From Blepharisma japonicum (Eukaryota; Ciliophora; Heterotrichea; Heterotrichida; Blepharismidae), in contig CATKHK010000047.1 in NCBI GenBank assembly GCA_949751835.1, positions 186,001 to 250,000 of the forward strand: a stretch of 64,000 nucleotides of DNA, written 5' to 3'. Below are positions 4,873 through 31,298 of the stretch, one piece after another (position 1 is the stretch's first letter; every line of letters starts with the position of its first letter). The notes beneath the pieces are model-generated. The model made no database searches, was not told the origin of the DNA, and worked only from the letters and a program-made list of their open reading frames with translations. Position numbers and translations under genes: made by a program.

Positions 4873-6054
4873 ATGGAGAGTATTGATGACCCTTGCACAA
4901 CTCCACGTGATGGCAGACACCAAGAAATTTGGTCAGGAGAGATTGGGTATTTACCCTATTCTCTTTTACTTGGCTGCCCGTACGATCGAGAAGCTCCTCC
5001 TCCAACCTACACTTCTATACGTGTTTTAAACAGAGAAAGGCTAGGCGACAAACAATCTCAGCTGCATGGGTACGAGTATTTAAGTGAAGGAGGACTCAAA
5101 TGCGTTGATGAACAAGTTTTAGCAAAGCAAAAAGGTATCATAATTGACGTTATAGGACAGGTAACTGCTTGTTTATTGCAAGGCAAAGGAGTTGTTGGGC
5201 TTAGCTTGCCTATTAGACTGTTTGAGCCAAGGTCGACCTTAGAAAGAATGCTTGACAGATGAAGCTTTATGCCAGTTTATTTTGATGGCATAAATAGAGT
5301 AGATCGATTAGAAAAATTTAAAAGAGTTATGGCCATGGCTATTGCAGGGCTTTATATAAGCCCTTCACAAGAAAAGCCGTTTAATCCTTTGCTAGGAGAA
5401 ACGTTGCAAGCGGAATGGCCAGATGGGACGAAAGCATTTTGTGAACATACTTCGCATCATCCGCCTGTTACAAATTTTTATTTGGAAAATAGACATTTTA
5501 AGATTCTTGGACATTTAGAATTGACTGGGAAATTCAAAAAAAATTCTTTAATTGGAGGATTTCAAGGCACAGTTAATATTGAATTTAGTGATGGACAAAA
5601 AGTCTCATATACTTACCCTAGATTTAGAGCAGGAGGTATGATTATGGGTAGCAGAACTGCTAATTGGGAAGGTCAAATGGTGTTTACTGATAGAGAAAAT
5701 GGACTTGCCGCTACAATTGTTTTTGGGCCTGAAAAGAAAAAAGGATTTTTTTCAAAAGCAGTAGGCAAATTAGACGATTTTAGAGGAGTTCTTACAGATA
5801 ACGACGAAAAAATTTGTGATATAAATGGTAGCTGGCTGAGAAATTTAGTGATAGGGGATACTGAATATTGGAACATCGATAATCATAGGCCTGTTTTCCA
5901 TAGATTTCCAGTGAACCCTTTGCCAAGCGATTGGAGATATAGAGAAGACTTAGTGTGGCTATTAAAAGGAAACTCAGAAATTGCACAAAAATGGAAGATA
6001 AAAGTAGAAAATAGGCAAAGAGACGATAGAAAACTAAGAGGATTGAAGTATTAA
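4873..6054 (+). CDS. Oxysterol-binding protein-related (ORP) lipid-transfer protein
   Basis: A 393-aa protein consisting of an ORP ligand domain alone (no PH or ankyrin part). One TGA at 5260-5262 is Trp in the context DRWSFMPVYFDG. The family fingerprint EHTSHHPP lies at residues ~191-198, with KPFNPLLGETLQ before it, and the typical ending WRYREDLVWLL...AQKWKIKVENRQR. ORPs move sterols, PI4P or PS at membrane contact sites, here presumably in the cytosol. It faces the CNB-1 gene convergently, 82 bp stop to stop. This is the only intact OSBP in the tandem array; six decayed copies of its 3' part lie downstream, each just before a CNB gene. Confidence 0.93.
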
Positions 6055-6136
6055 GTAAGGAGATTATATATTAATTTGCATAATTAAATAATAATTTATG
6101 ATATTGAAAACATTTTTCCAAACAAATATTATATAT

Positions 6137-8092
6137 TTAAAGAAAATAACTATTATCTTCCCTTTTGTAGGTTTCAGCTGAGTATTTTCTCAGGCTTTGT
6201 TCTACATTATCTTTATTTTTCATAGCAATTTCTTCTACTATCACATTATCAGGTTTTCTATTAGAAGAAGCTCTTTTAAAATTTCTCAAGAAATTCGGAG
6301 GAGCTACTCTTCTATAAATAATCTTTTTATGTGGACTTGATTTATTTCTTTTTTTAGCTCCAGGAGTAAAGCTTTGAGGACTTTTAGGACTATCAAAATT
6401 TGATATCCCAGTATCGATAATTCTATTATAGAAAATTATTGATCTGTCTTCTTTATAGACAGGTGACTCTTCAGTTTTTACTCTTTCTGGGCTTTGACTT
6501 AGACTTGGACTTGGAGAAGATCTTAACCTATTAAGTTCTGGGAGCATTATTCGTGGAGAATGATAGGTTTCTTTATCTGGAAGGCTAGATCTGGCTTCCT
6601 TTACAGGCTTCTCCTGTAAATTTGGAACTGGATCTTTTAATTTTTCAGTTTCTTCTTTTTCTTTTTCCAGGTGCTTAAAAGGTATTTTACTAAATAATGT
6701 CAAATCCAATGATTTTTTCGCTTGCTCAATTTTTATTAATTGTGGGACTCTTTCTTTAAAAAATGCATTATTTGCATTGTGTTTATCCCTGATTTGGGCT
6801 CATGTTTCAGGATAGGTTATTCCAATAGTCAAATTCTAATTATTAATTACATCTCGGTTTATACATAATAACTCGCCTTCGTCAGATCAGCACTGGCAAG
6901 AATGGATCCTTTTATCAAAATTTTCCAAAGCTTCTTCCATTCCTATCATTTCATTTTTACCTTTGATTACTAATTGCAATTGTTTTTGGATACAGTTTTT
7001 CCTCATTTTTTCTAATCTAAGAACAGTGCCATTTCTGCTTATTCGACTTGTTTGAGTTTCAAGTGAGGAAGTATCAACAACTCCTTTCAGCTCACTATGA
7101 ATTTTTGTAATCTAATTTATTTTTACCTTAAATTCTCCGGATTTAACAAAATACACAGTGTTAGCTGGTTCACCTTCTTTATATATAAATTGATGTTTCT
7201 TGTATAAAACTCTTGAGAAATAGAGTCCTAATTTATATAAAGCTAATTTGCTCCAATTCGAAAACATTGGCAAAGTTTGAAGAAACTCGATTTTTTCATT
7301 TAGCCTTTTTACTTCAATTTTCCCAAGAATTTTTTGAAAATTTGGCTTTGATATAACTCCCAAAATAATTTTTTTTTCTGCTATTAGTGTAGCAGCTCTA
7401 GGCTTATCACTTATTAAAGACAATTCTCCAAATGATGCCCCTTCTTTAATTATAGAAACTTTGGTTAGCTCCTCAGTTTCTAATTTTACAACTCTTGCTT
7501 CAGGGCTTTGCTTAGACAAAAAATCCAAAATTATCGCTTTTTCTTCATCAAGTTTGTCTTTAAATAAATCATTTATTTTCCAATTTTCACTTAATTGCAG
7601 ATTATTATTGTCTTCATTTTCCTTTTCTTGCATAGCAGTATTGAGCGAAATAAGATCAACAGCATTGAAAATTGTCCCACCTCTTCTTCTCCTGTTTTTT
7701 GGGTCAAACCTAATTTCAGGTATATCTTCTTCTTCTTTATTAAGGGTTGATAAAATCTTTTTAAGTTTATCAGGCTCTACATCACTGAGATTTATCGTGA
7801 CCTTTTTCTTTCTAGGAATATTTACAGAAGCTGATCCTTCAAGAACGATGTAAAAATTATAGCCGTTTTCACCAAAATTTACTATTGTATCCCCAGGATT
7901 TCGTTCCTCAATTGTCATTACTTGACAGCAAGCTTTATGAATCTCAGATGATCTCTGTTCATCAGTTATTCTTCTAAAAAAGTCTATATTCGAAGTAAGA
8001 GCCATAAGATAGGCTATATCCTCTTCACTGCGAAGCCTAGAAGGGATTTCCAATATTTGGGTGATTCTTGAAATATCATATGATGCTGACAT
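6137..8092 (-). CDS. Cyclic-nucleotide-binding protein, array copy 1
   Basis: A 641-aa protein in three exons (7127-8092, 6851-7111, 6137-6835) with two 15-nt introns, GTAAAAATAAATTAG and GTAATTAATAATTAG. Residues ~50-95 hold the first half of a cyclic-nucleotide-binding domain (GDTIVNFGENGYNFYIVLEG). A charged insert of ~110 aa follows, then the phosphate-binding cassette FGELSLISDKPRAAT (221-235) with the Glu and Arg that contact cNMP in PKA regulatory subunits. A second CNB domain starts at LPMFSNWSKLALYKL (~274) and runs through exon 2 (IGMEEALENFDKR), with a less canonical cassette. The C-terminal third is Ser/Pro-rich with many SP sites and conserved FYNRRIDTGISN-, RRVAPPNFLRN- and NSYFL-type blocks. 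No catalytic domain is visible. TGA encodes Trp at several points. Ligand (cGMP or cAMP) is unknown. Confidence 0.9.
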
Positions 8093-8310: not shown

Positions 8311-8384
8311 TTATTAAAATCCAGAATGGATACTAGCAAAGCTAATTGCCTAGGAGGCGCTTGAAAAATTATCATAGATTTTCT

Positions 8385-8738
8385 ATTGCGTTTGATGGGA
8401 GCAGTAATTTTACTTCTGAATTTCAAAATTTAGTATAAATAAGCTTACTAATGCAATTGTTTTTGGAATAGAGGAAAAAATAATTTTTCAAAGCTATTAG
8501 GTAAATTATTCAATTTTAGAGTGTGCTACAGAAAATGATGTAGTGATATGATAATAAATCTTGAATTAATAGAAATAATAGTTTTTTCCAAAGATATCCA
8601 GTGAAATTTTAACAAGCGATCAGAATTATAAGAAGAATTAGGTTCTGCTAAATAATAGCAAAAATTGAACAAAAATGGTAGATAAAAATAGAAAATAGGC
8701 AAAGAGATGATAGAAAACTAAGATTCCTGAAGTATTAA
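8385..8738 (+). pseudogene. Decayed OSBP relic 2
   Basis: Matches the last third of the intact OSBP gene. Examples are GGTAAATTATTCAATTTTAG against the intact GGCAAATTAGACGATTTTAG, and a near-identical ending around GAAAATAGGCAAAGAGATGA. Reading frame is lost through many small indels and stops. It lies just before the stop of CNB copy 2, the same position as the intact gene relative to copy 1. Confidence 0.85.
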
Positions 8739-8806
8739 CAAGAAGGAGATTGATGCATTAATTCCATTAATTAAAACAAATTATAGAACTTTAAATATTG
8801 CCAGAT

Positions 8807-10729
8807 TTATTCTGAATACTTTCTTACTAAGCTTTGATCTGCATAATCTTTAAATTTTGTCGCAAGTTCTTCTGCTACATTTTCAACTTTTCAGCTAGAA
8901 GCCCTTTGCTTATAATTTCTCAAGAAATTAGGGGGAGCAACTCTTCTATGAACAATTTGTTTTTTTTTAAATGAGTTTGTCTTAATTCTTTCTTTAACGC
9001 CAATAGTAAAGCCCTTAGGGATTTTAGGACTATCAAGATTTGATATCCCAGTATCAATTATTCTATTATAGAAAATAATTGATCTGTCTTCTTTGAAGAT
9101 AGGTGAATCTCTGGATTTTGCTTTTTCTGGGCTTGGATATGGGCTTGGGCTTGGTAAAGATCTTAATCTTCTATGCTTTGGAGATATTAGCCATGAAGTA
9201 TTTTTAAGTTCTTTATCAGGAGAGTTAGATTTAGTATCCTTTGCAAACTTCTCCGTTGAATTTGGAATTGTATCTTTAAACTTTTCAATTTCTTCTCTTT
9301 CTTTATCAAAATGCTTAGAAGGTAATTTACTAAATGATGTTAAATCTAGTGATTTTTTTGCTTCTTCAATTTTTATTAATTGGATAACTCTTTGTTTGAA
9401 ATATGCATTATTTGCACTGTGTTTATCTCTAAGTTGGGCTCATGTATCAGGAGAAGTTATTCCATTAGATAATTTCTACATGCTAATTACGTCTCTGCTT
9501 ATACATAATAATTCACCTTCCTCAGATCAGCATTGACAAGAATGAATCCGTTTATCACATTTTTCCATAGCTTCATCCATTCCTATCATTTCATTTTTCC
9601 CTTTGATTACTAATTGTAATTGTTTTTGTTTGCCGATCTTTCTCATTTTTCCTAATCTAAGAACAGAGCCATGACTGCTTAGTCCGCTTTTGTTAGTGTC
9701 AAGAGATGAAGTATCAAGAACACCTTTTAATTCACTATGAATTTTTGTAATCTAATTTATTTTTACCTTAAATTCTCCGGATTTTACAAAATATACTGTA
9801 TTAGCTGGTTCGCCTTCTTTATATACAAATTGATGCTTCTTATATGAAATTCTTGAAAAATAGAGTCCTAATTTATATAAAGCAATTTTGCTTCAATTAG
9901 AAAACATTGGCGAGGCTTGAAGAAATTCAAGTATTTCATTTAGCTTTTTTTCTGCTAAGTTTTCAAGAATTTTTTTAAAATTTGCCTTTGATATAACACC
10001 CAAAATTATTTTTTCTTCTGCTATACATGTTGCAGCCCTAGGCTTATTACTTATTAAAGCTGGCTCTCCAAAGGCTTCTCCTTCATTTACGACTGCAACT
10101 TTTGTTAAATCTTCAGTCTCAATTTCTACAACTCTTGCTTCTGGATTTTGTTTTGACAAAAAATCAAGAATTATTGCTTTTTCTTCGTCAAGTTTATCTT
10201 GAAATAAATCATTTATTTTGGAAAATTCATTTAATTGCTGATTATCGCTGTCTTCATTGTCCTTTTCTTGCATTGCAGTACTAAGTGAAGTAAGATCAAC
10301 AGCATTGTAGATTCTTCCACCTCTTCGTCTCCTTTTTCTTGGATCAAAATTTATTTCAGGTATCTCGTCTTCCTCTTTATTAAGCATCGATACAATCTTT
10401 TTAAGTTTATCTGTCTCTATATCTCTAAGATTTATTGTCACCTTTTTCTTTCTAGGAATATTCACTGAAGCTGATCCTTTGAGAACGATATAAAAATTAG
10501 AGCCTTTCTCACCAAAGTTTACAATTATATGCCCAGGGTTATGCATCTCAAATGTCATTATTTGGCAGCATGCTTTATGAATATCAGAAGATTTTTGTTC
10601 TTCAGTTATTTTCCTAAAAAAGTCTATTTTTGATGTAAGAGCCATAAGATAGGCAATATCCTCTTCACTACGAAGTTTAAAAGGAATTTGTAATATTTGA
10701 GTTATTCTTGATATATCATATGTTGCCAT
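8807..10729 (-). CDS. Cyclic-nucleotide-binding protein, array copy 2
   Basis: A 630-aa paralogue with exons 9767-10729, 9491-9751 and 8807-9475 and introns GTAAAAATAAATTAG and GTAATTAGCATGTAG. Architecture is as in copy 1: split first CNB domain, second CNB domain, SP-rich tail. This is the most deviant copy. Its first cassette reads FGEPALISNKPRAAT, with Pro where the others have Leu, and the protein ends at RKYSE, so the conserved last ~10 residues (…NSYFL) are absent. A TGA in the tail (ASSWKVEN) is read as Trp. All frames are otherwise open, so I treat it as a gene rather than a pseudogene. Confidence 0.85.
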
Positions 10730-10960: not shown

Positions 10961-11040
10961 TTAATAATTCAGTAAAGAGGTTTTGATATTAATAGCATAT
11001 ATTATTCTTATTAAAACATATTTCCATGCTATATGGTAAG

Positions 11041-11392
11041 CTGAAATTGAATTTACAGATAGAGAAAGCGCTAAAATTGTTTTTTGGGCATCAAAGGAAA
11101 AAGGATTTTTAAAAGCCGCAGACAAATTAAACGATCTCCGCAGTGATCTTGCAAAATATAATGAAAAATTTATGATATAAATGGTGGCAGCTGAGAAATT
11201 TTAGTGACTGGAGATACTTTATATTAGAGCATCAATAATTATAAGACAATTTCCCATAGATTTCCTGTGTGCTCTTAGTTGGGCAATTGGGGAATATAGA
11301 AGACTTATTGTGGCTACCAAAAGAAAACTCACAAACAATAAGATACAAAAATCAGAAAAGAGATGATAGAAAACTACTAAGTTTGGAGAATT
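11041..11392 (+). pseudogene. Decayed OSBP relic 3
   Basis: Clear match to the OSBP 3' third: TTTACAGATAGAGAAAGCG, then AAAATTGTTTTTTGGGC, then GATAGAAAACTA near the end. The frame is broken many times. Located directly before CNB copy 3. Confidence 0.85.
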
Positions 11393-11444
11393 AGATAATA
11401 ATGTATATTATTGAAACCATATACTAAATTAAATATTAAAAAAT

Positions 11445-13400
11445 TTAAAGAAAATAGCTGTTATAAACTTTCTTGTAGATTTCTGCTGAATAATCTTTCA
11501 TGCTTCTATCTACATGATCCTTAAATTTTGCAGCAAGTTTTTTTACCACATTTTCAGTATTTCTATTGCTTGAAGAAGAAGCTCGTGATTTATTATAATT
11601 TCTAAAGAAATTAGGTGGAGCACCTCTTCTATGAATAGTATTTTTATAAGGGCTTGTATCAGTATTTCTTTTAGAATCAGTAGTAAAGCAACTAGGGCTT
11701 CTAGGACTATCAAGATTTGATATTCCAGTATCAACTCTTCTATTATAGAAGACTTTTGATCTGTCTTCTTTGAAGACAGGTGACTCTCTATTTTTTACTT
11801 TTTCTGGGCTTGGACATGAGCGTGCATCTGGAGAAGATCGAAACCTTTTGTGCTCTGGGGATATTAATTGTGGAGAATGCCTATGCTCTTTATCAAGATT
11901 GCTATATCTAGCTTCCTTTATAGTTTTTTCCTGAATATTTGGATATGATTCTTTTAACATTTGAGTATCTTTATCCAAGTTTTTAGTTGATAATTTATCT
12001 CATGATTTTAAATCTAATGATTTTTTTGCTTCCTCAATTTTTATTAATCGGACAACTCTTTCTTTAAAAAATGCATGGTTTGCATTGTGCTTATCTCTGA
12101 TTTGGGCTCATGTATCAGGATAGGTTATTCCAATATTCAAGTTCTAATTGGTAATTACTTCTCTGCTTATGCATAGTAATTCGCCTTCATCTGATCAGCA
12201 TTGACAAGAGTGAATCCTTTTATCAAAATTTTCCATAGGTTCTTCCATTCCTATCATTTCGTTTTTTCCTTTGATTACTAATTGTAATTGTTTTTGGATA
12301 CCTTTTTTCCTCATTTGTTCTAATCTAAGAACAGTGCCATTACTGCTTAGTCGGCTTGATTGAGTATCAAGAGATGAAGTATCAACAACTCCTTTTAATT
12401 CATTATGGATTTTTGTAATCTAATTTATTTTTACCTTAAATTCTCCAGATTTTACAAAATATACAGTGTTAGCTGGCTCACCTTCTTTGTACACAAACTG
12501 ATGTTTCTTGTATAGCATTCTTGAAAAATAGAGTCCTAATTTATATAATGCAGTTTTGCTTCAATTAGAAAACATTGGTAATGCTTGAAGAAAGTCAATT
12601 TTTTCATTTAACCTTTTTATTTCATATTTCCCCAAAATTTTTTTAAAATTTGGCTTTGATATAACACCCAAAATTATTTTTCCTTCTGCTATAAGTGTAG
12701 CAGCCCTAGGTTTATTACTTATTAGGGACAATTCTCCAAAGGATTCCCCTTCATTTATTATAGAAACTTTGGTTAACTCCTCAGTTTCAATTTTTACAAC
12801 TCTTGCTTCTGGGCTTTGTTTCGACAAAAAATCAAGAATTATTGCTTTTTCTTCTTCAAGTTTATCTCTAAATAAATCATTTATTTTTCAAAATTCATTT
12901 AATTGCTGATTGTCGTTGTCTTCATTATCCTTTTCTTGCATTGCAGTACTAAGTGAAGTAAGATCAACCGCATTAATGATTTGACCACATCGCCTTCTCC
13001 TTTTTCTTGGGTCAACTTTTATATCAGATACATCGTCTTCTTCATCACTAAGCGACGATACAATCTTTTTCAGTTTATCTGTCTCTATATGTTTAAGATT
13101 AATTGTGACCTTTTTCTTTGTAGGAATATTTACTGAAGCAGATCCTTTGAGTACAATGTAAAAATTATAGCCATTATCTCCAAAATTTACAATAGTATCT
13201 CCAATGTTTCGCTCCTCCATTGTCATTATTTGGCAGCAAGCTCTATGAATTTCAGATGAATTTTGCTCTTCAGTTATTTTTTTGAAAAAGTCTACTTTTG
13301 ATGTTAGAGCCATAAGATAGGCAATATCTTCGTTATTACGAAGTCTAGAAGGAATTTGCAGTATTTGAGTTATTCTTGATATATCGTATAATGCTGACAT
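11445..13400 (-). CDS. Cyclic-nucleotide-binding protein, array copy 3
   Basis: A 641-aa paralogue with exons 12435-13400, 12159-12419 and 11445-12143; introns GTAAAAATAAATTAG and GTAATTACCAATTAG. Exon 1 (966 nt) and exon 2 (261 nt) have exactly the lengths of copy 1. The first CNB domain is split by a charged insert; its cassette is FGELSLISNKPRAAT. The second domain begins LPMFSNW. The tail has the RRGAPPNFFRNY and NSYFL blocks. In-frame TGA codons (for example QQLNEFW, FSNWSK) are Trp. No disabling change seen. Confidence 0.9.
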
Positions 13401-13635: not shown

Positions 13636-13883
13636 TGCATAATTCAGCTAAGAGCACAATAAATAAGACTCATAATTAAGATGGATTTTAATTTTATTAT
13701 GACCTAAATAAATTTACTAAGAAATTAGATAAATGCCATACATTAAATTATAAGTACACTAACTGAGAATATTAATAGATTTAGAATGATCAAAAAATAA
13801 ACTTAATAATTATTTACCATCATCTTTAGGTTAAATAAACTCATAAATTATTATATAGTCAAGCTAGCCATAAGCTTAGCCAT

Positions 13884-14322
13884 AGTGTGGATAAGTCAAA
13901 AAGTTATTTTCCTCCCACTTAGATATTCATAAAAACGGCAACTGAAAAGAAAATCTTAGAATGAGAGATAGAGTGATTTTTTTCAAAAGCAGCCACCGGG
14001 GGAAATCACATGGTTTTTGAGACGGAATATTAGACATGAATTTCAAATATTTTATTAATTCAAGATAAAAAGCAACGAGACAGAGGAATTATTTTATATG
14101 TCAATCTCTGATCCCAAACAAGAAAAGATCAAGAAGATAATAAAGGTTAGCTTATTATTAGAGTTTTGATGATTTGACATAAAGAAATTCTTTCGAGAAA
14201 TAATGGCAGCCCATACAAACCGAAATTCGTGAACCTTACTTATTCTTAAATAACTTCAGCTACAGGGAATTAAAAGCAATAAAATATTTAATTGACGTAA
14301 ATTTCAGCTGAAACCAAAAAGA
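13884..14322 (+). pseudogene. Decayed cactin relic (5' part)
   Basis: Parallels the first ~430 bp of the intact cactin gene at 29742: GTGTGGATAAGTC for the start region, a TCAATTCAAGATAAAGAATG-like block, TTAGAGTTTTGATGATTTG, ATTCGTGAACCTTAC, AATAACTTCAGCTACAG and AATTGACGTAAATTTCAGCT. Frame is lost. It runs almost directly into OSBP relic 4, so the 3' end of cactin and the 5' end of OSBP are deleted. Confidence 0.8.
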
Positions 14323-14364
14323 TAAATATAACAATATAACTTAAATTTTTTTAAGAATTATAGC

Positions 14365-14812
14365 TATTGATATCGCAGGGCTACATATAAACTCCTCACA
14401 AGAAAATCTATTTAATCCTTTTTTGATATTTAGGGGAAGTTAAAAATATTTCTTTAATTAGCAAATCCCAAGACACAGTTAATATTGAATTGTTGGTCAG
14501 AAAAATTTCATATTTATCCTACATCTGAGAAGAGGCATTATATATGACAAAATATCTTCTAAAAACGGTCATATGGAGTTTACTATGGAGAAAATAAACC
14601 TATATTTTCAATTTTTTTATCTCTTAAAATGCAAAGGATTCTTTTCAAAAGCAAGTCTAATGAGAAAATTTTAAAAGACGAGAGAAGAGTTTATGTAATA
14701 AAAATATTGGATTATTGGTAATCCTAAGACTGTTATTCATAGACTTCCAGTGGATCCTTCACCAAGCGATTGGAAGTATAATGAAAATTTAGTTTGGATA
14801 CTTTAAAAAGCT
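14365..14812 (+). pseudogene. Decayed OSBP relic 4
   Basis: Starts with a match to the middle of OSBP (GCAGGGCTACATATAAACTC, TCACAAGAAAATCTATTTAA) and continues through CACAGTTAATATTGAATT to GACTTCCAGTGGATCC. It covers more of the gene than the other relics but the frame is broken repeatedly. Confidence 0.85.
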
Positions 14813-14912
14813 TTGAAGTTTTTTTTGGAAAAAAGAAAGAAGATAGTTATTAAATTTGCAAAATTAAGCAATAGCTTATAATATCGAAAACATATCCTAT
14901 CAAAACTAAATT

Positions 14913-16844
14913 TTAAAGAAAATAGCTATTATATAATTTCTTTTCAATTTCTCCTGAATAGTCTTGATCTGTATTATCTTTAAATTTCCTAGAATTTTTT
15001 TCTGTTGCATTATTAGCTTTTCTATTAGAAGAAGCTCTAATTTTATGATTTCTTAAGAAATTAGGTGGAGCCACTCTTCTATAAACAATTTTATTGATTG
15101 GGCTTGTCTCAGTGCCATTTTTTAAAACAGTGGTAAAACTCATGGGTCTTTTAGGACTATCAGTATTTGAAGTCCTAGTATCAATTCTTCTATTATAGAA
15201 AATTATTGATCTATCTTCTTTGAAGACAGGCGACTCTTCAGTTTTTACTCTTTCTGGGTTTGGGTATTGGCATGGGCTTGGAGAAGATTTAAATCTTTTA
15301 TGCTCTGGAGACACCCATGAAGAATGTTTAGGTTCTCTATCTGGAGTGCTAAACCTAGCCTCCTTTACAGGCTTTTCATGTGCATTTGGTCCTTTTAATT
15401 TTTCAGTTTCTTCTTTTTCTAAGTGCTTGGTAGGTAATTTACTTCATGATTGTAAATCTAATGATTTTTTAGCCTGCTCAATTTTAATTAATTTTGTGAC
15501 TCTTTGTTGAAAAAATGCATAATTTGCATTGTGTTTATCTCTTATTTGGGCTCATGTATCAGGATAAGTTATTCCAATATTCAAATTCTAAATATTAATT
15601 ACATCTCTGCTAATACAAAATAACTCCCCTTCATCAGATACGCATTGACAAGAGTGGATTCTTTTTTCAAATTTTTCCATAGCTTCTTCCATTCCTATCA
15701 TTTCGTTTTTTCCTTTGATTACTAATTGCAATTGTTTTTGGATGCTTCTTTTCCTCATATTTACTAGTCTTAGAACAGTGCCATGACTGCTTAGTCGATT
15801 ATTTGTAGTGTCAAGAGATGAGGTATCAACAACTCCTTTCAGCTCGCTATGTATTTTTGTAATCTAATTTATTTTTACCTTAAATTCACCTGATTTTACA
15901 AAATATACAGTATTGGCTGACTCACCTTCTTTATATACAAACTGATGCTTTTTATATAAAATTCTTGAAAAATAGGGTCCTAGCTTATATAAAGCAATTT
16001 TGCTTCAATTAGAAAACATTGGCAAGGCTTGAAGAAAGTCAATTTTCTCATTTACCTTTTTTTCTGCTAAGTTTCCAAGAATTTTTTTAAAATTTGGTTT
16101 TGATATGACTCCCAAAATTATTTTTTCCTCTACTATAATAGTAGCAGCTCTAGGTTTTTTACTTATTAGAGACAGCTCTCCAAAGGCTTCCCCTTCATTT
16201 ACTAAGGCAACTTTGGTTAATTTCTCAGTTTCTATCTCGACAACTCTTGCATCTGGGCTTTGTTTGGACAAAAAATCAAGAATTATTGCTTTTTCTTCTT
16301 CAAGTTTATCTTGGAATAAATCATTTATTTTGCAAAATTCATTTAATTGCTGATTATCGCTGTCTTCATTTTTCTTCTCTTGTATGGCAGTATTAAGTGA
16401 AATAAGATCAACTGTATTAAGAATTTTTGCTTCCCTCCTTTTCTTATTTTTTGTATCTATATTTATATCAGATACATCATTTTCCTCAAGATCAAGCGTC
16501 AAAAAGATATTTTTAAGTTTATATCTCTCTGCATCACTGAGATTTATTTTGAGCTTTTTCTTTGTAGGAATATTTACTGAAGCTGATCCTTTGAGAACAA
16601 TGTAAAAATTATAGCCTTTTTCACCAAAATTGACTATAACATCTCCATAATTACGTTCTTCAACTTTCATTACTTGGCAGCATGCTTTATGAATTTCAGA
16701 TGATTTTTGTTCTTCAGTTATTTTTTTAAAAAAGTCTATTTTCGATGTATGTGCCATTAGATAGGCAATATCCTCTTCACTACGAATTCGAGAAGGAATT
16801 TGCAGTATTTGAGTTATTCTAGATATATCATATGACGCTGACAT
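14913..16844 (-). CDS. Cyclic-nucleotide-binding protein, array copy 4
   Basis: A 633-aa paralogue with exons 15879-16844, 15603-15863 and 14913-15587; introns GTAAAAATAAATTAG and GTAATTAATATTTAG. Exons 1 and 2 match the family lengths exactly; the tail is 8 codons shorter than in copy 1. The first cassette reads FGELSLISKKPRAAT. Exon 2 encodes the second CNB domain region. The SP-rich tail has RRVAPPNFLRNHK and NSYFL. TGA codons are Trp (QSWSKLP, FSNWSK). All frames are open. Confidence 0.9.
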
Positions 16845-17993: not shown

Positions 17994-18037
17994 TTTATAC
18001 AAACTTTTAGTTTCAATAAGAAAGTGCAATAATTAAA

Positions 18038-19145: not shown

Positions 19146-19670
19146 ATGGCCTACTCAGGCGATAGTCCTTTTCTTCTTAAAAGTAAGATCAACAAAATCA
19201 AATGCCAATCCGCGTTTTATATTCTATCATTTTTTATTCCAGGCTTATTGGTATTATTTATGTGGCATGAAGTTAGTTCTATTGCGTTTATGATTGTCAC
19301 AATGTTCCCATACCTTATATTAGGACTCTTTGGATATTTCTCCACACAGACTGAAAATAGTTTTTGATTTGCACTTTACGGTATTTTAGCAGGCATTCTT
19401 TTAATTTTGAATGTTTATTGGTAATGTTTTCAATAATTAGCTTAGCATGAGCGGGTTTTAGTTATGGTTCAATTTGCCCAGATAGACAAGATGAAGACTG
19501 CAATTTCAGCAAAGGATTGATTATGCTACTCATATACTTAATATTTTGACTATAGTTATAGGCACTTTATTTGCGATTTTACTTGCTTTTTCAGCAAAGC
19601 ATGGCATTTAGTGTAGAAGACTTATAGATCAATTGCCGGCAGCTCAAAGATTTGTTTCATATGTGTAAAA
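19146..19670 (+). pseudogene. Four-TM protein B1, frameshifted copy
   Basis: Matches the intact gene B2 at 43823-44347 along its whole length but is broken. After residue ~73 a TGA is Trp as in B2, then one base is missing around 19408 (GTTTATTGG against GTTGTATTGG), and another is missing near 19529 (CTCATATACT against CTCATGATACT). The first 85 or so codons remain open. Confidence 0.85.
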
Positions 19671-19789
19671 TCAGATTAGAATAGATAGCTAATAAAATCT
19701 TTAAAGAAATAAACAAAGCTACAAATATCAAGATTAACCTAACTTAAACCATTTGTACTTTACCAGAAAGAGAACTGCGCTTGTTGAAA

Positions 19790-20065
19790 AGCAAAAGGAG
19801 TTATCAAGCTTAAATTGACTCTTAGGGTATTTGAGCCAATGTTGAATTTAGAATATTTTCTTAACTGATGAAACTTTTTGTTAGTTATTTTGATTGCATA
19901 CAAATGGAAGTTAATAAATATAATTATAGGGATACTGAATATTGGAATTTTGATAATTATAGATCTTCGGTAAATGTCTAGTTAGTCCATTGCAAAGAGA
20001 TTGGAAAAATCTCACAAAATAAAAGATAAAGTAGAAAACAGTTAAAAAAGTGAAAAACTAATATA
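19790..20065 (+). pseudogene. Decayed OSBP relic 5
   Basis: Contains GCAAAAGGAGTTATCAAGC, then GTATTTGAGCCAATGTTG, matching the region before the DRWSF codon of OSBP, then GGGATACTGAATATTGGAA from the 3' part. A large middle section is missing and the frame is lost. It lies before CNB copy 5. Confidence 0.8.
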
Positions 20066-20144: not shown

Positions 20145-22082
20145 TTAAAAAAAATAGCTATTATCTTCCCTCCTGTAAGTTTCTTCTGAATATTTTCTAA
20201 AACTTTGATCAAAATTATCTTTAAATTTCATAGCAAGTTTTTCTGCTACATTATCAACTTTTCTGTTAAAAGAAGTTCGTGGTTTATAATTTCTATTGAA
20301 ATTAGGTGGAGCAATTCTTTTATTAACCATTGTTTTATATGGGCTTGTCTCAGAAATTCTTTTAATAGTACTAGTAAAACTTTGAGGTTCTTTAGGACTA
20401 TCAAGATTAAAAGTCCCAGTATCAAATTTTCTATTATAGAAATTTATTGATCTGTCTTCTTTGAGGACATTTGAATCTCTTGGTTTCACTTTTTCTTGGC
20501 TTGGGCCTGGAGAAGATCTAAATCTTCTATGCCTTGGGGACATTAATTGTGAAGATTGTTTTAGTTGTTTATCTGGAGGGCTGTATCTAGCCTCCTTGAT
20601 AGGCTTTTCCTGTGGGCTTTGAATTGATTCTTTCAATTTTTCTGGTTCGTCTTTTTCAAATTGCCCAATAGGAAGTTTATTTAGCGATGTTAAATCTAAT
20701 GTTTTTTTTGCCTCCTCAATTTTTGTTAATTGGATAACTCTATGTTTAAAAAATGCATTATTTGCATTGTGCTTATCTCTTATTTGGGCTCATGTATCGG
20801 GATAGGTTATTCCAATAGTCAAATTCTAAATGTTAATTACTTCTCTGCTTATACAAAATAACTCCCCTTCATCAGATATGCATTGACAAGAGTGAATCCT
20901 ATTATCAATCTTTTCTAAAGCTTCTTCCATTCCTATCATTTCGTTTTTTCCTTTGATTACTAATTGCAGTTGTTTTTGGATACTTTTTTTCCTCATGTTT
21001 CCTAGTCTAAGTACAGCTCCATTGCTGCTTAATCGGCTTGATTGGGTATCAAGAGATGAAGTATCAACAACTCCTTTTAATTCACTATGGATTTTTGTAA
21101 TCTAATTGAGTTTTACCTTAAATTCACCAGATTTTACAAAATATACATTGTTGGCTGGCTCTCCTTCTTTATATACATACTGATGCTTCTTGTATAGATT
21201 AGTGGAAAAATAGGGTCCTAATTTATATAAAGAAATTTTGCTTCAATTAGAAAACATTGGTAAAGCTTGAAGAAATTCAATTTTTTGGTTTAGCCTCTTT
21301 TCTGCAAGTTTCCCAAGAATTTTTTGAAAATTTGGCTTTGATATGACTCCTAAAAGCATTTTTTCTCCTGCTATAATTGTAGCAGCCCTAGGCTTGTTAC
21401 TTATTAGAGACAATTCTCCAAAGGATTCCCCTTCAGATATCATAGACACTTTGGTTAGCTCCTCAGTTTCTAACTCTACAACTCTTGCTTCTGGATTTTG
21501 TTTAGATAAAAAATCTTGAATTACTGATTTTTCTTCATCAAGCTTGTCTTTAAATAAATCTACTATTTTTCAAAAATCGTTGGATTGTTGATTATCGTGG
21601 CCTTCATTTTTCTTATCCTTCATAGCAGTATTTAGTGAGACAAGATCGACCGCATTGAAAAAGTGGCCACCTCTTCGTTTTCGTGATTTTGGGTCGACTT
21701 TTATATCAGAAACATCGTCTTCCTCAAGATTTAGTGTCAAAAATAACTTTTTAAGTTTATCTGCCTCTGCATCACTGATGTTTATTTTCACCTTTTTCTT
21801 TGTAGGAACATTTACTGATGCTGACCCTTTAAGGGCGATGTAAAAATTATATCCGTTTTCACCAAAATTGACAATTATATCTCCGGGATTATGCTCCTCA
21901 AATGTCATTATTTGGCAGCATGCTTTATGAATTTCTGATGATTTTTGCTCTTCAGTTATTTTTTTGAAAAAGTCTATTTTTGATGTAAGATTCATAAGAT
22001 AGGCAATGTCTTCTTCACTACGATGCCAAAAAGGAATTTGCAAAATTTGAGTAATTGTTGATATATCATATGACGTTGACAT
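20145..22082 (-). CDS. Cyclic-nucleotide-binding protein, array copy 5
   Basis: A 635-aa paralogue with exons 21117-22082, 20841-21101 and 20145-20825; introns GTAAAACTCAATTAG and GTAATTAACATTTAG. The first intron variant is shared only with copy 6, suggesting these two are closest relatives. First cassette FGELSLISNKPRAAT; the second CNB domain and SP-rich tail (RRFRSSPGPSQEKVKPRD, NSYFF ending) are present. TGA in SNDFWKIVD is Trp. All three exons are open. Confidence 0.9.
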
Positions 22083-22310: not shown

Positions 22311-22394
22311 TAAATTGTATAATTTAGGAAAGAAAATTATAAAATAAGATTTTAATATTAAAATATTACCTATTTTCTCATTAAAATTATAAAT

Positions 22395-22925
22395 ATTTAG
22401 AAATTAGACATTTAAAATTCTTGGAAACTTCGAATTTACTAAATAATTCCAAAAAACACATTTAACTAGAGGACTCCATAGATCAATTAATATTTAATTT
22501 AGAGATGGATAAAATATTGTATATCTATTTGAGATTCAGGGCTGAAACTCCATAATAGGCAGTAGATTTGCTAATAAGAAGGTTAAATATTGTTTATTGA
22601 TAGAGAAATAGATATTCTGCTATAATTCTTTTGGTCCTCAAAGGCAAAGGTTTATTTTAAAACAGAAGAAAACTAGATAACTTAAGGAGCTCTTATGGAA
22701 AATGGCAAAAAAATACAATACAAACGATAGCTGGCTAAACTTAATATTATTGGAATATTGATATTATAGGACTATTTACCATAAATTTCCAATGAGCCCA
22801 TTAAAAAGTGATTGATGCATGAAAAAATTTAATGACAGCTAATGGTATTGATGCTTTAAGAATTGAGCAAAAATTGATATAAAAAATAGAAAATAGACAA
22901 GAGATTACACAAAACTACTATTAAA
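22395..22925 (+). pseudogene. Decayed OSBP relic 6
   Basis: Follows the OSBP second half in order: TTAGACATTTAAAATTCTTGG, AATTCCAAAAAACACATTTAA, AATATTTAATTTAGAGATGG and GAAAATAGACAAGAGATTAC near the end. Many indels and stops. Located before CNB copy 6. Confidence 0.8.
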
Positions 22926-22955
22926 TAATTAAAATTCCCATCAAATATTTAAAAT

Positions 22956-24911
22956 TTAAAGAAAATAGTTATTATCTTTCATCTTGTAGATTTCATCTGA
23001 ATATTTTCTAAAGCCTTTATCTACATGATCTTTATATTTTGCAGCAAACTCTCCTGCTGCATAATCACCTTTTCTGTTAGAAGAAGTTGGTGAATTGCAA
23101 TTGCTATAAAAATTGCAGGGCGTAAGTCTCTTATCAGTATGCTTTCTGTATGTAATTGTTTCAATACTTCTTTTAGAGTCAATAGTAAAACCCTGTGGAC
23201 TTTTAAGACTAATAAGCGTCGGAGTCTCACTGCCAATTTTTCTATTATAGAAAATAATTTGTTTATCTTCTTTGAAGATAGGCAAATCTATAGGCTTGAC
23301 TCTCTCTGTGCTTGGATATGGGCTTGGGCCTGGCGAAGATCTAAATCTTCTATGCTTTGGGGTTGTTAATGTTGAAGCATGCTTAAGTTGCTTATCAAGG
23401 ACACTAGAGCGACCATCTTTTGCAGGCTTTTCCTGTATATTTAGAATTGGTTCTTTTAATTTTTCAGTTTGTTCTTTTTCTTTTTCCAAGTGCTCAGTAG
23501 GTAATTTACTTAATGATCTAAAATCAAATGATTTTTTTGCCTCTTCAATTTTTATTAGCTGGACAGCCCTTTGTTTATAAAACGCATAATTTGCATTGTG
23601 TTTGTCTCTTATTTGGGCTCATGTATCAGAATTGGTTATTCCAATATTCAAATTCTAAATGATAATTACATCTCTACTTATGCAAAATAGCTCGCCTTCA
23701 TCAGATATACATTGGCAAGAGTGCATCCTTTTTTCAAAATTTTCCATAGCTTCTTCCATTCCTATCATTTCGTTTTTTCCTTTGATTACTAATTGCAATT
23801 GCTTTTTAATACTTTTTTTCCTCATCTTTCCTAGCCTAAGCATAGAGCTATGGCTGTTCAATCTGCTTGTTTGAGGGCCAAAAGATGAGATATCAACAAC
23901 TCCTTTTAATTCACTATGGATTTTTGTAATCTAATTGAGTTTTACCTTAAATTCACCAGACTTTACAAAATATACAGTGTTAGCTGGCTCACCTTCTTTA
24001 TATACATACTGATTCTTCTTGTACAAAATTCTTGAAAAATAGAATCCTAATTTATATAGAGCAATTTTACTCCAATTACAAAATATAGGCAAAGCTTGAA
24101 GAAATTTTATTTTTTCATTGAGCTTTTTTTCTGCTAGATTCCCAAGGATTTTTTTAAAATTTAGCTTTGATATGACTCCTAAAATTATATTTTTTTCTGC
24201 AATAATTGTAGCAGCCCTAGGTCTTTCACTTATTAAAGATAATTCTCCAAAGGATTCTCCTTCATTTATTGTAGAGACTTTGGTTAGCTCTTCTGTTTCT
24301 ATTTCTACAAATCTTGTTCCTGGGCTTTGCTTTGACAAGAAATCCAGGATTATTTCTTTTTCTTCATTAAGTTTATCTTGAAATAAATCATTTATTTTTC
24401 AAAATTCATCTGGCTGTTGATTATCATTGTCTTCATTTTTCTTTTCTTGCATGGCACTACTAAGTGAAATAAGATCAACCGCATTAAAAATTCTCCCACC
24501 TCTTCTTTTCTTTTTTTTTGTGTCAGGTTTTATTTCAGTAATATCATCTTCTCCATCATAAAGTGTTAATAAAAATGTTTTAAGCCTATACTTCTTTAGA
24601 TCTCTGAGATTTACTGCGACCTTTTTCTTTGTAGGAATATTGACTGAAGCCGACCCTTTTAGAACGATGTAAAAATTAGACCCGTTTTCACCAAAATTTA
24701 CTATTATATCTCCTGGGTTATGCTCCTCAAATGTCATTATTTGGCAACATGATTCATGAATTTCAGATGATTTTTGTTCTTCAGTTATCTTTGTGAAAAA
24801 ATCTATTTTTGATGTAAGAGCCATAAGATAGGCAATATCTTCGTTACTACGGAGTCTAGAAGGAATTTGGAGTATTTGGGTTATTCTTGAAATATCATAT
24901 GATATTGACAT
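22956..24911 (-). CDS. Cyclic-nucleotide-binding protein, array copy 6
   Basis: A 641-aa paralogue with exons 23946-24911, 23670-23930 and 22956-23654; introns GTAAAACTCAATTAG and GTAATTATCATTTAG. The start is the ATG at 24909-24911 (MSISYDIS); the codon before is TTG. First cassette FGELSLISERPRAAT. In the second CNB domain the otherwise conserved CQCW is CQCI. The tail is more divergent than elsewhere: RLTPCNFYSNC replaces the RRVAPPNFLRN-type block, and it ends NNYFL. Open throughout with TGA as Trp. Confidence 0.9.
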
Positions 24912-25439: not shown

Positions 25440-25840
25440 TAACTAAAGTTAGAATAGAAGATATGGCTATGGGAAGTAAAACTATAAAATGAGAGGCTAA
25501 ATGAAATTTACTGCTAGGGAAAATGGGTAGCCTCTACAATTGTGTCTTAACCCAAAAAGAAATAAAGATTTTTTCAAAAACTGCATGTAAATTAGATGAT
25601 TTTGGGAGAGTTCCATATAAAATCGAGAAAAATTTGTGATATAAATAGTAGCTGGCTGAAAATATTAATGATAAACGATACTAAATATTGGAATATTGAT
25701 AATTATAGGCCTTCTTTCCATAGAGTTTCAGAGTACTCATTAATAAGTAACTGTAATAGCTAAGGCTACACTAAGCTAATAATAAATTAAATAAAAATAG
25801 AAAATAGAGAAGACACTATAGAAAGCCTGGAGTCTGAGAT
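25440..25840 (+). pseudogene. Decayed OSBP relic 7
   Basis: Matches the OSBP 3' third with unusually clear blocks: AAATTTGTGATATAAATAG, AGTAGCTGGCTGAAAATATT, GATACTAAATATTGGAATAT and TTTCCATAGAGTTTCAG. The frame is broken. It is immediately before CNB copy 7. Confidence 0.85.
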
Positions 25841-25931
25841 ATTAAGTAAGGACACATTAGTTTGCTTAATTAAATAATAATTTATAATAATGAATCACAT
25901 TTCCCAAAATTGCTATTGCCAACTCATCAAT

Positions 25932-27908
25932 TTAAAGAAAATAGCTATTTGCTTCCCTCTTGCTCGACACTATTTCTGCTGAATATTTTCTAAAGCTTTG
26001 ATCTACATTATCTTTAAATTTCATTGCAAGTTCTTCTATTGAATTATCAGCTTTTCTGCTTGAAGCTCGTGATTTATAATTTCTCAAAAAATTAGGTGGA
26101 GCCACTCTTCTATGAACAATTTTTTTATATGGATTTGCCTTGATTCTCCTTGTAAAGCTATTAGTAAAACTCTGAGGACTTTTAGGACTATCAAGATTCG
26201 AATGCACTGTGTCAATTCTTCTATTAAAAAAATATATTGACCTGTCTTCTTTATATATAGGTGATTCTTCAGTTTTTACTCTTTCTGGGCTTGGGCATGG
26301 ACTTGGGCTTGGAGAGGATTTGAATCTGTTATGCTTTGGAGACATGGATCGAGAAGAATGCTTAAGCTGTTTAACCGGAATACTAAATCTATTCTCCTTT
26401 ATGGGTTTTTCTATTACATGAGGAATTGGCTCTTTTGATTTTTCATTTCAATTTTGCTCTTTTTGTTCTTTCTTTTCTTTTACCAGCCGCTTGATAGGTA
26501 TTTTGCTAAATGATGTAAAATCTAATGATTTTTTTGCCTCCTCAATTTTTGTTAATTGGGTAACTCTGTCTTTAAAATATGCATTATTTGCATTGTGTTT
26601 ATCTCTTATTTGAGCTCATGTATCAGGATAGGCTATTCCATTATTCAAGTTCTAATTGTTAATTACCTCTCTGCTTATGCATAATAATTCACCTTCATTC
26701 GACCAACATTGGCAAGAGTGGATTCTTTTTTCAAAATTTTCCAATGTTTCTTCCATTCCTATCATTTCGTTTTTTCCTTTGATTACTAATTGTAATTGTT
26801 TTTGGATGCCTATTTTCCTCATTTTTCCTAGTCTAAGAACAGTACCATGGCTGCTTAGACGGCTTTTATTAATATCTAGAGATGAGGTATCAACAACTCC
26901 TTTCAGTTCGCTGTGTATTTTTGTGATCTAATTTATTTTTACTTTAAATTCTCCAGATTTTACAAAATATACAGTGTTAGCGGGTTCGCCTTCTTTATAT
27001 ACAAATTGATGCTTCTTGTAATAAACTCTTTTAAAATAATAACCTAGCTTATATAAAGCAATTTTACTTCAATTTGAAAATATTGGTAAAGATTGAAGAA
27101 ATTCAATTTTTTCATTAAGCCTTTTTTCTGCGAGAATTCCCAAAATTTTTTTAAAATTTGGCTTTGATATGACACCTAAAATTATTTTTTCTTCTGCTAT
27201 AAGTGTAGCAGCTCTAGGCCTATCACTTATTAATGATAACTCTCCAAAAGATTCCCCTTCATTTATTATAGAAACTTTGGTTAACTCCTGAGTTTCTATT
27301 TCTACAACTCTTGCTTCTGGGCTTTGTTTAGACAAAAAATCAAGAATTATTACTTTTTCTTCATCTAGCTTGTCCTGAAATAAATCATTCATTTTTCAAA
27401 AATCATTTAGCTGCGGATTATCGGTGTCTTCATTTTTCTTTTCTTGCATAGCAATGTTGAGTGAATTAAGATCAACTGCATTCATAATTTTAGCACCCCT
27501 TCTTCTCTTTTTCCTTGGATCGAACTTTATTTCAGGCACATCATCTTCCTCATCGTTAAAGGTCGATATTATCTTTTTAAGTTTTTCTGTTGCGACATCA
27601 CTGAGATTTATTGTCATTCTTTTTTTCATAGGAATATTCACTGAAGCTGACCCTTTAAGAACAATGTAAAAATTTGACCCGCTTTCACCAAAATTTACTA
27701 TTATATCTCCTGGGTTATGCTCCTCAAATGTCATTACTTGACAACATGCTCTATGAATTTCAGATGATTTTTGCTCTTCAGTTATCTTTGTGAAAAAGTC
27801 TATTTTTGATGTAAGAGCCATAAGATAGGCGATATCCTCGTTACTACGTAGTCTAGAAGGAATTTGGAGTACTTGGATTATTCTTGGTATATCATATGTT
27901 GCTGACAT
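25932..27908 (-). CDS. Cyclic-nucleotide-binding protein, array copy 7
   Basis: A 648-aa paralogue with exons 26943-27908, 26667-26927 and 25932-26651; introns GTAAAAATAAATTAG and GTAATTAACAATTAG. Longest tail of the seven. First cassette FGELSLISDRPRAAT. The last block reads SAEIVSSKREANSYFL with a small insertion. TGA Trp codons include NDFWKMND and a Trp in the EQNWNEKS region of the tail. Its 5' flank differs from the other copies: about 150 bp is inserted at ~27.98-28.13 kb and the element found 180 bp upstream in copies 1-6 is not recognisable, so its regulation may differ. Confidence 0.9.
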
Positions 27909-28449: not shown

Positions 28450-29658
28450 TTATGGATCTGTTCTTATTCAGTCTGTTATTCTAGTCTGAAGCATCTTCCC
28501 AGCACAGTTCTTTTCAGCTCTATCAGCATGTTCTACTGCCCTCTGTGCCAACACCTTGACATGGTATCGCTTAATCAGCCAGTCCATTTCTTTCACTACC
28601 TCCGCTCTTCCATCAGTCCACCACTTGTGCATTAGTTGTTCAGATCTTCAGCTGTACATTAACATGTCCAGCAATGTAACTCCAACAGCTTCTCGTGTTT
28701 GTAGCTCCTGTGTATTGCCGGTCTCTGTTGGTGCTTCTTGTTCCTCCTGAGCCTGTCCACTAATCATTTCATGTAATGAGCTACCTAGCATATGTACCTC
28801 CTGATCCAGTGAGTTGTGCATGCCTTGCATGTGCGTACCAGGTATGTGCATGTTATGCTTGTGCATGTCATGTATGTGCATGTTCTGTATGTTCATGTCA
28901 TGTATGTGCATGTCATGCACGTGCATGGCTTGTTTATGTGTGTCTTGTATGTCCATGTCCTGTAATGTCTGTATATCATCTAGAATTTCTATTGAGTCGT
29001 CTCTTTGTGTTATTTCGGTAATTCTGGTCATCAGTTCACACCGATAATCTGCATATACTGGGCATCATACTAGCATGTGCTCTTCAGTTTCAACTATCGA
29101 GCAGACCTCACACAATGGGCTATTGGTTAAGTGTCGTTTGTATGCACAACCGTTGCTACTGTTGAAACCTGCTCTGAGTCTATGTATGGCTCCAACCGCT
29201 ACTTGTTTATCAGAGTTCAAGAGTACATAGGTTGGGATGTAGGTGCTTGTAGCACCTTGCATCACCCATCTGAACATTTCTGTTGTTTTGGGAGTTTCTG
29301 TCTCTAATCTATACATTGATTCTCTAAATTCAGCCTTCTTGATAGAGTCCTTCAGCACCGTTTTTCACTCTTTGAGTTCAGTTTTCTTGATAAGCCTGTT
29401 GCTATATTTCTCCAGTTTCAAATCTCTCAGGTAGTCGGTGCACCTCTTTTCTCACGGCAAGTTTTGCTGTTTATTAAGCCTCCACGTTATCTTCGATAGC
29501 AGATCTGTTTCCTTCATAGCCTTTTGTCTGAAGATTAATGTTTGCATTTTCATCAGATTCTTTAGGCTGCTTCATCCTAAGTCTAACATCGATGTTTCTC
29601 TAGCTGTGCCTCTACATCCAGGGATTCGGTTACAGAATGGTTCTGGTGGAAGTAGGGA
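28450..29658 (-). CDS. LINE C-terminal ORF fragment with CCHC motif and MHIHD repeats
   Basis: An open frame of ~402 codons with no TAA or TAG, using TGA as Trp like host genes. It contains GCRGTARETSMLDLGWSSL and many basic helices typical of the region after RT, then IHRLRAGFNSSNG, and a Cys/His knuckle of the form C-x2-C-x7-H-x4-C in LCEVCSIVETEEHMLVWC. A stretch of five-residue repeats (MHVHD, MHIHD, MNIQN, MHIHD, MHKHN) follows, then a TGG/TGA-containing tail (MHKWWTDGRAEVVKEMDW) to TAA at 28450-28452. No natural start is visible since the element is 5'-truncated. Confidence 0.75.
28805..28975 (-). repeat. 15-bp minisatellite inside the LINE ORF
   Basis: About nine to ten imperfect 15-bp units, on the plus strand of type CATGTCATGTATGTG. 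On the coding strand each unit gives five residues such as M-H-I-H-D. Because the unit is a multiple of three, the frame is kept. Confidence 0.8.
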
Positions 29659-29741
29659 CTATAAACATCAGCACATCTTGACTTAACTATTTAATAATCA
29701 CTATTTAACTTAAAATTCTGACTCATCAAAAAATTTATAAT

Positions 29742-31298
29742 ATGGATAAGCCAAGAAGTCATTCTCCTCCACCCAGAAAAATCCATAAAAGCAACAATTG
29801 AAAAGACACTTTAGAAAATGCAAGACAAAGTGAAATTTCTCGAAAGCCAACTGCTAAGAAAAATGATTTTTTTTCTGAAATGGACTATTCCAGACGTGAA
29901 ATTCCAAATCATTCATCAATTCAAGATAAAGAATGAAAAGACAGCGAAAGAAGCTTCCATTTAGAGCAAGCTAAACTCAGATCCCAAATAAGAATAGAGC
30001 AAGGAAGGGAAACCAAATTTGACTTATTATTAAGAGTTTTGATGATTTATCATGGAGAAATCCCTTTTGAAAAGCGCTCACAAGCCATTCCTATCGAAAT
30101 CCGTGAACCTTACATATATCTAAATAACTGCAGTTACAGCGAATTAGAAGCTATAAAAGCCTCAATTGACGTCCACTTTCAGCTTGAAGACAACAAAGAA
30201 AAGCAGGAATTTTGAAATTCTCTTTTAATTATCGTCAATCAAGAAATACAACAATCTAAAAATACCGAAAATAACCGAAACCCAAGCCAGTTTAAAGATG
30301 ATATTGATAGAATTATCAAAAATTTAGATGAAAAAAAATTAGGAGTAATTGAAGAGCAAGTAAGGCAAAATTTGAATCGGCAAGATAAGGATAAAACTTT
30401 TTGGACTGAAGTACAAGACAATATTTCTATATATAAAGCAAAATCATCATTAAAAAAAGCATTTCAGAATTTTATGGAAAAACCAGAAAATAATAACAAT
30501 GAATTAATATTTTCTCCAGTTCAGAAACGAGATCTATTAATGAAAGATGATTTTTTACAGACTGGGGCAAATGATGGAAGTGAAAGCCCAATTTTATTTG
30601 AAGACGAAACAAATTTTGATGGTATAAAGATAATTACGGCCGATAAAGAACAAAAAACTTACTCTCAATCAAGGCGAGAAATAATGCTAAAAGAGCTTGA
30701 AAATTTAATAGAAAGACAAAAAAGACTGATCTCAAAGAAAAATCCTTTACTAAGCTCAGACAGTGCTCTATATAATGTATTGAGAAATGAAAAAGTTGTG
30801 AGTGGGAATATTGAGAATTCCATAGAAGATTTAATGAAAATTGATATGATGAAATTTATGAAGCTTGAAGATGGGGAGACAGAGTTTGGAGAAATCGTAG
30901 ATTTAAAGCCAATTTTAGAAGACTGGAATGATAAATATCGGCCTAGAAAGCCAAAATATTTCAATAGAATTAAAACAGGCTACGAATGAACTAGACACAA
31001 CCAAACACATTATGATCATAGAAATCCTCCACCCAAGGTAGTTCAAGGCTACAAATTTAATATTTTTTATCCCTGCCTTATCGATAAAACCCAAGCTCCC
31101 CAATTTTATTTAGAACCAGACGAAACTAATGATACAGCAATACTAAGGTTTCATGCAGGCCCTCCATATGAAGACATTGCATTTAGAATAATAAATAGAG
31201 AATGGGACTACTCAGACAGGCATGGCTTTAAAAGCTTTTTCGACAAAGGAATTTTGCATTTGTACTTCAATTTCAAGCGCCATAGATATAAACGCTAA
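29742..31298 (+). CDS. CACTIN: Cactin, spliceosome-associated protein
   Basis: A 518-aa protein in one exon, with TGA Trp codons (for example NNWKD, EFWNS, YEWTRH). The C-terminal ~125 residues match the highly conserved cactin C-terminal domain: YRPRKPKYFNRIKTGYEW, NQTHYDHRNPPPKVVQGYKF, NIFYPCLIDK, AILRFHAGPPYEDIAF, NREWDYSDRHGF and the final LHLYFNFKRHRYKR. The middle region (LRSQIRIEQGRETKFDLLL, IREPYIYLNNCSYSEL) fits the cactin_mid domain. The protein is shorter than metazoan cactins, which have a long RS-rich N-terminus. Cactin acts in pre-mRNA splicing; here splicing handles 15-nt introns. It is the sole intact copy in the array, and two 5' relics lie at 13.9 and 17.3 kb. Confidence 0.95.

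Follow-up and report, generated by a model that had tools for sequence, protein, structure and literature searches.

A tandem array of seven cNMP-binding-protein genes in Blepharisma japonicum, probably formed by a duplication that cut both neighbouring genes

The window analysed here, a stretch of 64,000 nucleotides (nt) of Blepharisma japonicum DNA (GenBank assembly GCA_949751835.1, contig CATKHK010000047.1, positions 186,001 to 250,000 of the forward strand), contains a tandem array of seven genes for cNMP-binding proteins, here called CNB1 to CNB7. The array is flanked by an OSBP gene at its left edge and a cactin gene at its right edge, and fragments of these two genes lie between the CNB copies. 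It is probable that the array arose by a tandem duplication that cut within OSBP and within cactin, so that CNB alone was copied whole and its neighbours were fragments from the start. Moreover, every CNB copy is under purifying selection and has long been constrained separately. Among the literature matches listed, no publication was recognised as describing this array, a negative result that carries little weight.

Layout of the array

Open frames were read with genetic code 4 (TGA as Trp) and introns of 15 nt. The genes bounding and forming the array are as follows (lengths in amino acids, aa; E, expectation value).

4873-6054, plus strand: intact OSBP, 393 aa, left edge of the array; Pfam Oxysterol_BP, E 2.9e-43; TAA stop
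6137-8092, minus strand: CNB1, three exons, 641 aa; open frame
8807-10729, minus strand: CNB2, three exons, 630 aa; open frame
11445-13400, minus strand: CNB3, three exons, 641 aa; open frame
14913-16844, minus strand: CNB4, three exons, 633 aa; open frame
20145-22082, minus strand: CNB5, three exons, 635 aa; open frame
22956-24911, minus strand: CNB6, three exons, 641 aa; open frame, with the start moved to the ATG at 24911
25932-27908, minus strand: CNB7, three exons, 648 aa; open frame
29742-31298, plus strand: intact cactin, 518 aa, right edge of the array; Pfam Cactin_mid, E 8.8e-37, and CactinC_cactus, E 1.2e-57; TAA stop

An earlier note on this DNA had described seven open CNB genes with a first exon of 966 nt (963 nt in copy 2) and a second exon of 261 nt in all copies, and both the open frames and these lengths were confirmed. 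It had not described the third exon, which measures 669-720 nt. Each of the seven genes carries two 15-nt GT..AG introns, and the products span 630-648 aa, the C-terminal end of CNB2 being about 12 residues shorter than that of the other copies.

The locus displays traits of the Blepharisma nuclear genome, namely TGA at Trp sites, introns of 15 nt (14 of 14 in the CNB genes) and AT-rich DNA, with a guanine-plus-cytosine content of 31.4% in the window. At two Trp codons of exon 1, CNB1 uses TGG, while TGA stands in four and in five, respectively, of the six other copies; internal TGA codons were also found in four of seven other genes examined. For Blepharisma stoltei, UGA as Trp, introns mainly of 15 and 16 bp and 66% AT have been published (PMC9942806).

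Relics of OSBP and cactin between the CNB copies

The six intervals between neighbouring CNB copies (I1 to I6) were compared with the two flanking genes, and the significance of each match was judged against 100 dinucleotide shuffles per comparison, over 42 comparisons. Matches are given below as positions of the intact gene; insertions and deletions are abbreviated as indels, and the cactin relics were placed by alignment to intact cactin.

8369-8738, plus strand: OSBP relic 1, matching 5613-6054; 16 of 20 indels frameshifting, 2 in-frame stops
11027-11393, plus strand: OSBP relic 2, matching 5658-6053; 7 of 9 indels frameshifting, 3 in-frame stops
13882-14325, plus strand: cactin 5' relic A, matching 29737-30202
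14343-14891, plus strand: OSBP relic 3, matching 5312-5370 and 5485-6034; 20 of 23 indels frameshifting, 2 in-frame stops
17328-17652, plus strand: cactin 5' relic B, matching 29734-30089
19757-20010, plus strand: OSBP relic 4, matching 5147-5321 and 5855-5940, with a further match to 20139; 6 of 6 indels frameshifting, no in-frame stop
22384-22932, plus strand: OSBP relic 5, matching 5472-6054; 18 of 22 indels frameshifting, 6 in-frame stops
25443-25845, plus strand: OSBP relic 6, matching 5618-6054; 9 of 11 indels frameshifting, 7 in-frame stops

The six OSBP and two cactin relics of the earlier note are thus real, chance being excluded by the shuffles (0 of 100 as good), and OSBP is intact solely at the left edge and cactin solely at the right edge, as it had stated. 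Its repeated OSBP-CNB-cactin unit needs correction: the full unit is not repeated, cactin being detectable in only two of the six internal intervals and the relics being all partial.

Codons 211-393 of OSBP were detected in all six intervals and codons 92-210 in two (I3 and I4), in each case with 0 of 100 shuffles as good, and codons 1-91 were found in none by the same shuffle-tested search. Cactin codons 1-184 were detected in I3 and I4 (0 of 100 shuffles as good), where the relics can be traced securely to codon 154 at most, and no relic of late cactin was found in any of the six intervals. The sole late match that beat the shuffles, in I4 to cactin 30300-30714 (0 of 100; 1 of 300 local shuffles), falls within a later insertion, in a segment shared with 42357-44387, and was therefore not accepted as a cactin relic. 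A short match of 19704-19754 to cactin 30241-30292, which adjoins OSBP relic 4, is no more than suggestive, being equalled or bettered by 5 of 300 and 20 of 300 shuffles. Overall, every relic is partial and the same end is gone each time, the 5' end of OSBP in 6 of 6 and the 3' end of cactin in 2 of 2, while the ends kept are always those facing the CNB genes.

The junctions themselves were also informative. In I3, cactin relic A ends at a match to 30202 (codon 154), 17 nt before OSBP relic 3 begins (from 5312), forming a chimeric cactin-OSBP junction. In I4, the cactin match ends at 30089 and the OSBP match starts at 5147 (codon 92), and the insertion separates the two; in I2 and I5, the CNB flank passes almost straight into OSBP.

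Decay of the relics and upkeep of the CNB flanks

Frameshifting indels number 6 to 20 per OSBP relic, and in-frame stops 0 to 7. No sign of past function was seen at their codon positions, divergence being equal at all three: relic-relic differences at positions 1/2/3 were 0.382/0.368/0.352 (15 pairs), and differences from the intact gene were 0.265/0.224/0.246 (six relics). The corresponding values among CNB genes were 0.157/0.140/0.292 (21 pairs). The decayed neighbour fragments offer a neutral clock within the same locus. CNB 5' flanks are better kept than the relics, with a mean difference of 0.341 vs 0.426 and a gap fraction of 0.08 vs 0.22 (six flanks against five of the six OSBP relics), which fits a promoter kept for each copy.

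Selection and history of the CNB copies

Trees were built with a single nucleotide model, and selection was tested with a codon-likelihood script. Pairwise comparison of 614 gap-free codons in the 21 CNB pairs gave means of 0.159 for nonsynonymous divergence (dN) and 0.578 for synonymous divergence (dS; range 0.39-0.73), a ratio of 0.28. Under a one-ratio codon model, omega (dN/dS) was 0.193 (0.199 with the other topology), and omega = 1 was rejected with twice the log-likelihood difference (2dlnL) at 674 and 637. On the first topology, omega was 0.14/0.11/0.34 for exons 1/2/3, and all seven terminal branches had values of 0.11-0.25, each rejecting 1 (2dlnL 43-142). The dN/dS check proposed in the earlier note thus bears out its view that selection keeps the CNB copies: the ratio lies well below 1, not near 1, and this holds for every copy.

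As to dosage or diversification, the two options offered in that note, the signals are mixed. No positively selected sites appeared in the CNB codon models (2dlnL 0 for the whole gene and 2.8 for exon 3; no site above 0.9). Copies 2-7 differ from CNB1 by 24-33% at the protein level and few exchanged tracts were found, a poor fit to a homogenised dosage array. The CNB copies may now have divided roles.

The CNB tree is nearly a star, with internal support of 41-56; third positions group copies (2,3), (4,5) and (6,7) at support 67-78. Furthermore, copies that lie farther apart in the array show higher dS (Mantel r 0.67, exact p 0.0008), and this order dependence, together with the near-star tree, fits a short run of tandem duplication. 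A permutation test for exchanged tracts over the 21 pairs, uncorrected, was firmest for CNB6 and CNB7, which share a tract in exon 1 (coding nt 36-230; 0 of 1000 permutations, also with third positions alone). This suggests that some exchange between CNB copies took place; the tree-based CNB figures above ignore such exchange.

Regarding the proteins, PF00027 (cNMP_binding) is the sole Pfam family at E <= 0.01 in all seven, and no kinase domain was found among such matches. Each protein, as in PKA regulatory subunits, has two cNMP-binding domains, the first of which is interrupted by a long stretch and preceded, by our reading, by about 30-35 residues in which no Pfam match was found. The residues F221 G222 E223 and P231 R232 A233 A234 T235 are invariant in all copies, so the first domain retains its ligand cassette; in our reading, none is present in the second. 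The CNB proteins are predicted to bind cyclic AMP or cyclic GMP. A structure prediction of CNB1 with the seven copies reached a mean pLDDT (predicted local distance difference test) of 33 and was not used.

Origin of the array

The starting segment would have included CNB in full, along with its flanking DNA on both sides, but of OSBP only the 3' part and of cactin only the 5' part. A duplication running from inside OSBP to inside cactin would then have produced the order OSBP, CNB, cactin-5'/OSBP-3', CNB, cactin, and unequal crossing-over would have multiplied CNB plus this junction to seven copies within a fairly short time. Whole OSBP and cactin would have been present only as the flanking originals, each internal junction beginning with partial neighbours. 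The fragments would subsequently have decayed free of coding constraint, while the seven CNB copies were held by purifying selection. With breakpoints inside both neighbours, the presence of intact OSBP and cactin at the edges alone follows with no need for selection on their number; indeed, such a model predicts all features listed in the earlier note plus the one-sided truncation. The neighbour fragments would accordingly have been already cut at the duplication event, and a single ancestral junction would have spread through unequal crossing-over and then been trimmed.

The earlier note had instead put the loss of OSBP and cactin copies down to a single copy of each being enough. The one-sided truncation, in 6 of 6 OSBP and 2 of 2 cactin relics, and the chimeric junction in I3 speak against this explanation, and whole neighbour copies most likely need never have existed. 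Similarly, the pattern that it read as a contrast of gene fates is explained mechanically by breakpoints inside both neighbours: if duplication cut the neighbours, a kept gene beside broken ones is no evidence on selection acting on those neighbours. What remains is the case of seven old, separately constrained cNMP-binding-protein gene copies in a ciliate.

Several observations weigh against the model of a duplication with breakpoints inside both neighbours. The six OSBP relics have six different starts and cactin occurs in two of six intervals, so a shared ancestral junction is not directly seen; separate duplications with different breakpoints, or later deletion of longer fragments, would leave the same picture. 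Between the two cactin relics, differences are in excess at third positions (0.337/0.316/0.436 over 290 sites, a small sample). Weak matches to DNA upstream of OSBP, with 1 of 100 shuffles as good in I2 and 3 of 100 in I3, would mean, if real, that OSBP 5' DNA was once present there, but chance alone should produce such values among 42 comparisons. Lastly, the branch tests were run on one of two topologies, and the CNB exons disagree on topology, so no branching order among the copies is claimed.

Copying of whole OSBP-CNB-cactin units, with CNB kept by selection and the redundant OSBP and cactin copies left to decay, seems to us unlikely. Deletion did continue after duplication, as the six OSBP starts, the many small indels and the lack of cactin in four of six intervals indicate, and the missing part is mid-interval, farthest from the CNB genes, as erosion predicts. 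Nevertheless, erosion of whole units has to accommodate that the same ends are always gone (OSBP codons 1-91 and, barring the match in the later insertion, late cactin, each in 6 of 6 intervals), and that the OSBP relics carry no codon-position signal of past function.

Slightly less likely still are several independent tandem duplications with differing breakpoints, some of which never included cactin; in that event the neighbours would again have been fragments from the start. The distinct OSBP starts and the CNB flanks that nearly adjoin OSBP in I2 and I5 would be expected of such a history, but up to six events would be required, all cutting the same two genes. Moreover, the near-star tree and order-dependent dS fit ordinary expansion too, and later deletion accounts for the different starts. 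Array order and copy number are those of the assembled sequence; an assembly artefact or collapsed alleles are highly improbable, as the copies, at dS 0.39-0.73 and with individual interval structures, are far past allelic difference or mis-joining.

Apparently slow third positions of the edge OSBP gene

If the OSBP relics are viewed as a star, the intact gene sits near its centre: it agrees with them at 125 of 125 unanimous positions and differs from their majority base at 10 of 271. The idea that it had not changed at all was rejected, as simulation (with more sites per gene than the data contain) showed that alignment to the intact gene yields much of the star-centre effect. When the intact gene and five of the six relics were aligned jointly, the third-position branch was 0.090 for the intact gene vs 0.289 for the relics. 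Simulated OSBP silent rates of 0-0.3 of neutral fit this value, and at the full rate 0 of 24 simulations were as low under each of two divergence settings. Third positions of intact OSBP thus seem to evolve about threefold more slowly than the neutral expectation from its own relics.

The plainer explanation of these slow third positions is that OSBP is under strong codon constraint. It is doubtful that, instead, the array interior (relics and CNB silent sites) evolves faster than the edges, leaving the edge OSBP near its array-founding sequence; the cause would then be a process of mutation or repair linked to repeated DNA. If the interior does change faster, the OSBP relics would form a fossil star around the edge gene.

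Other elements in the window

The following insertion, like the possible retroelement remnant described below, was not mentioned in the earlier note.

17656-19708, plus strand: inserted 2-kb segment in I4, a near-copy of 42357-44387; 93.8% identity, 84 substitutions, 44 gap columns

The source-like segment lies about 25 kb downstream, and the identity of 93.8% makes the insertion far more recent than the CNB copies. Within it lie an open membrane-protein gene (18038-18565) and a further such gene disrupted at codon 93; no target-site duplication was seen at its edges. The donor region, 42357-46135, is a small tandem family of membrane-protein genes (43653-44612 vs 45179-46135, 81% identity), with no Pfam match for the members tried.

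Between CNB7 and cactin, a 402-codon open frame (28453-29658, minus strand) has a CxxC...H...C-like end and a very weak match to zf-RVT, below the cut-off (E 0.2), and may be a retroelement remnant; a tandem repeat of period 15 lies within it at 28815-28964. The window that holds the CNB genes also encodes, at 58469-61006 on the plus strand, a protein in which two stretches match adenylate/guanylate cyclase (Guanylate_cyc, E 9.1e-88). A tRNA scan and an Rfam scan gave no matches.

Comparison with known systems

Among solved structures, PKA regulatory subunits and apicomplexan PKG match the CNB proteins best by sequence, and the CNB proteins share with them the FGE and PRAAT cassette. PKA regulatory subunits have an N-terminal dimerisation domain and an inhibitor segment. 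The CNB proteins show no kinase domain by Pfam at E <= 0.01, and in our reading they differ from both PKA regulatory subunits and PKG in their short N-terminus, interrupted first domain and second domain without a cassette.

Regarding the locus, the Sdic array of Drosophila melanogaster is described as having arisen from neighbouring genes that were duplicated, underwent deletions and were then expanded in tandem, with gene conversion (PMC7475035). The CNB array resembles it in the duplication of neighbouring genes, the deletions and the tandem expansion with exchange. However, the chimeric unit there is a new expressed gene, whereas in the CNB array the chimeric junction appears to be dead and it is the inner gene, unaltered, that was kept.

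A matching geometry is found in the human RCCX module (STK19/RP1 - C4 - CYP21 - TNX), in which RP2 is a partial copy of RP1, TNXA comprises exons 32-44 of TNXB, and C4 is functional in each module (PMC11542561). Both loci have partial edge genes inside the array and a functional inner gene, OSBP and cactin displaying the same geometry: whole edge genes stand only at the outer ends, and the internal copies are truncated on the junction side. RCCX differs in having mostly one to three modules, with a copy number polymorphic between people, while here seven old copies are accompanied by decayed fragments. The CNB array is a locus of an ordinary kind, yet old and unusually legible.

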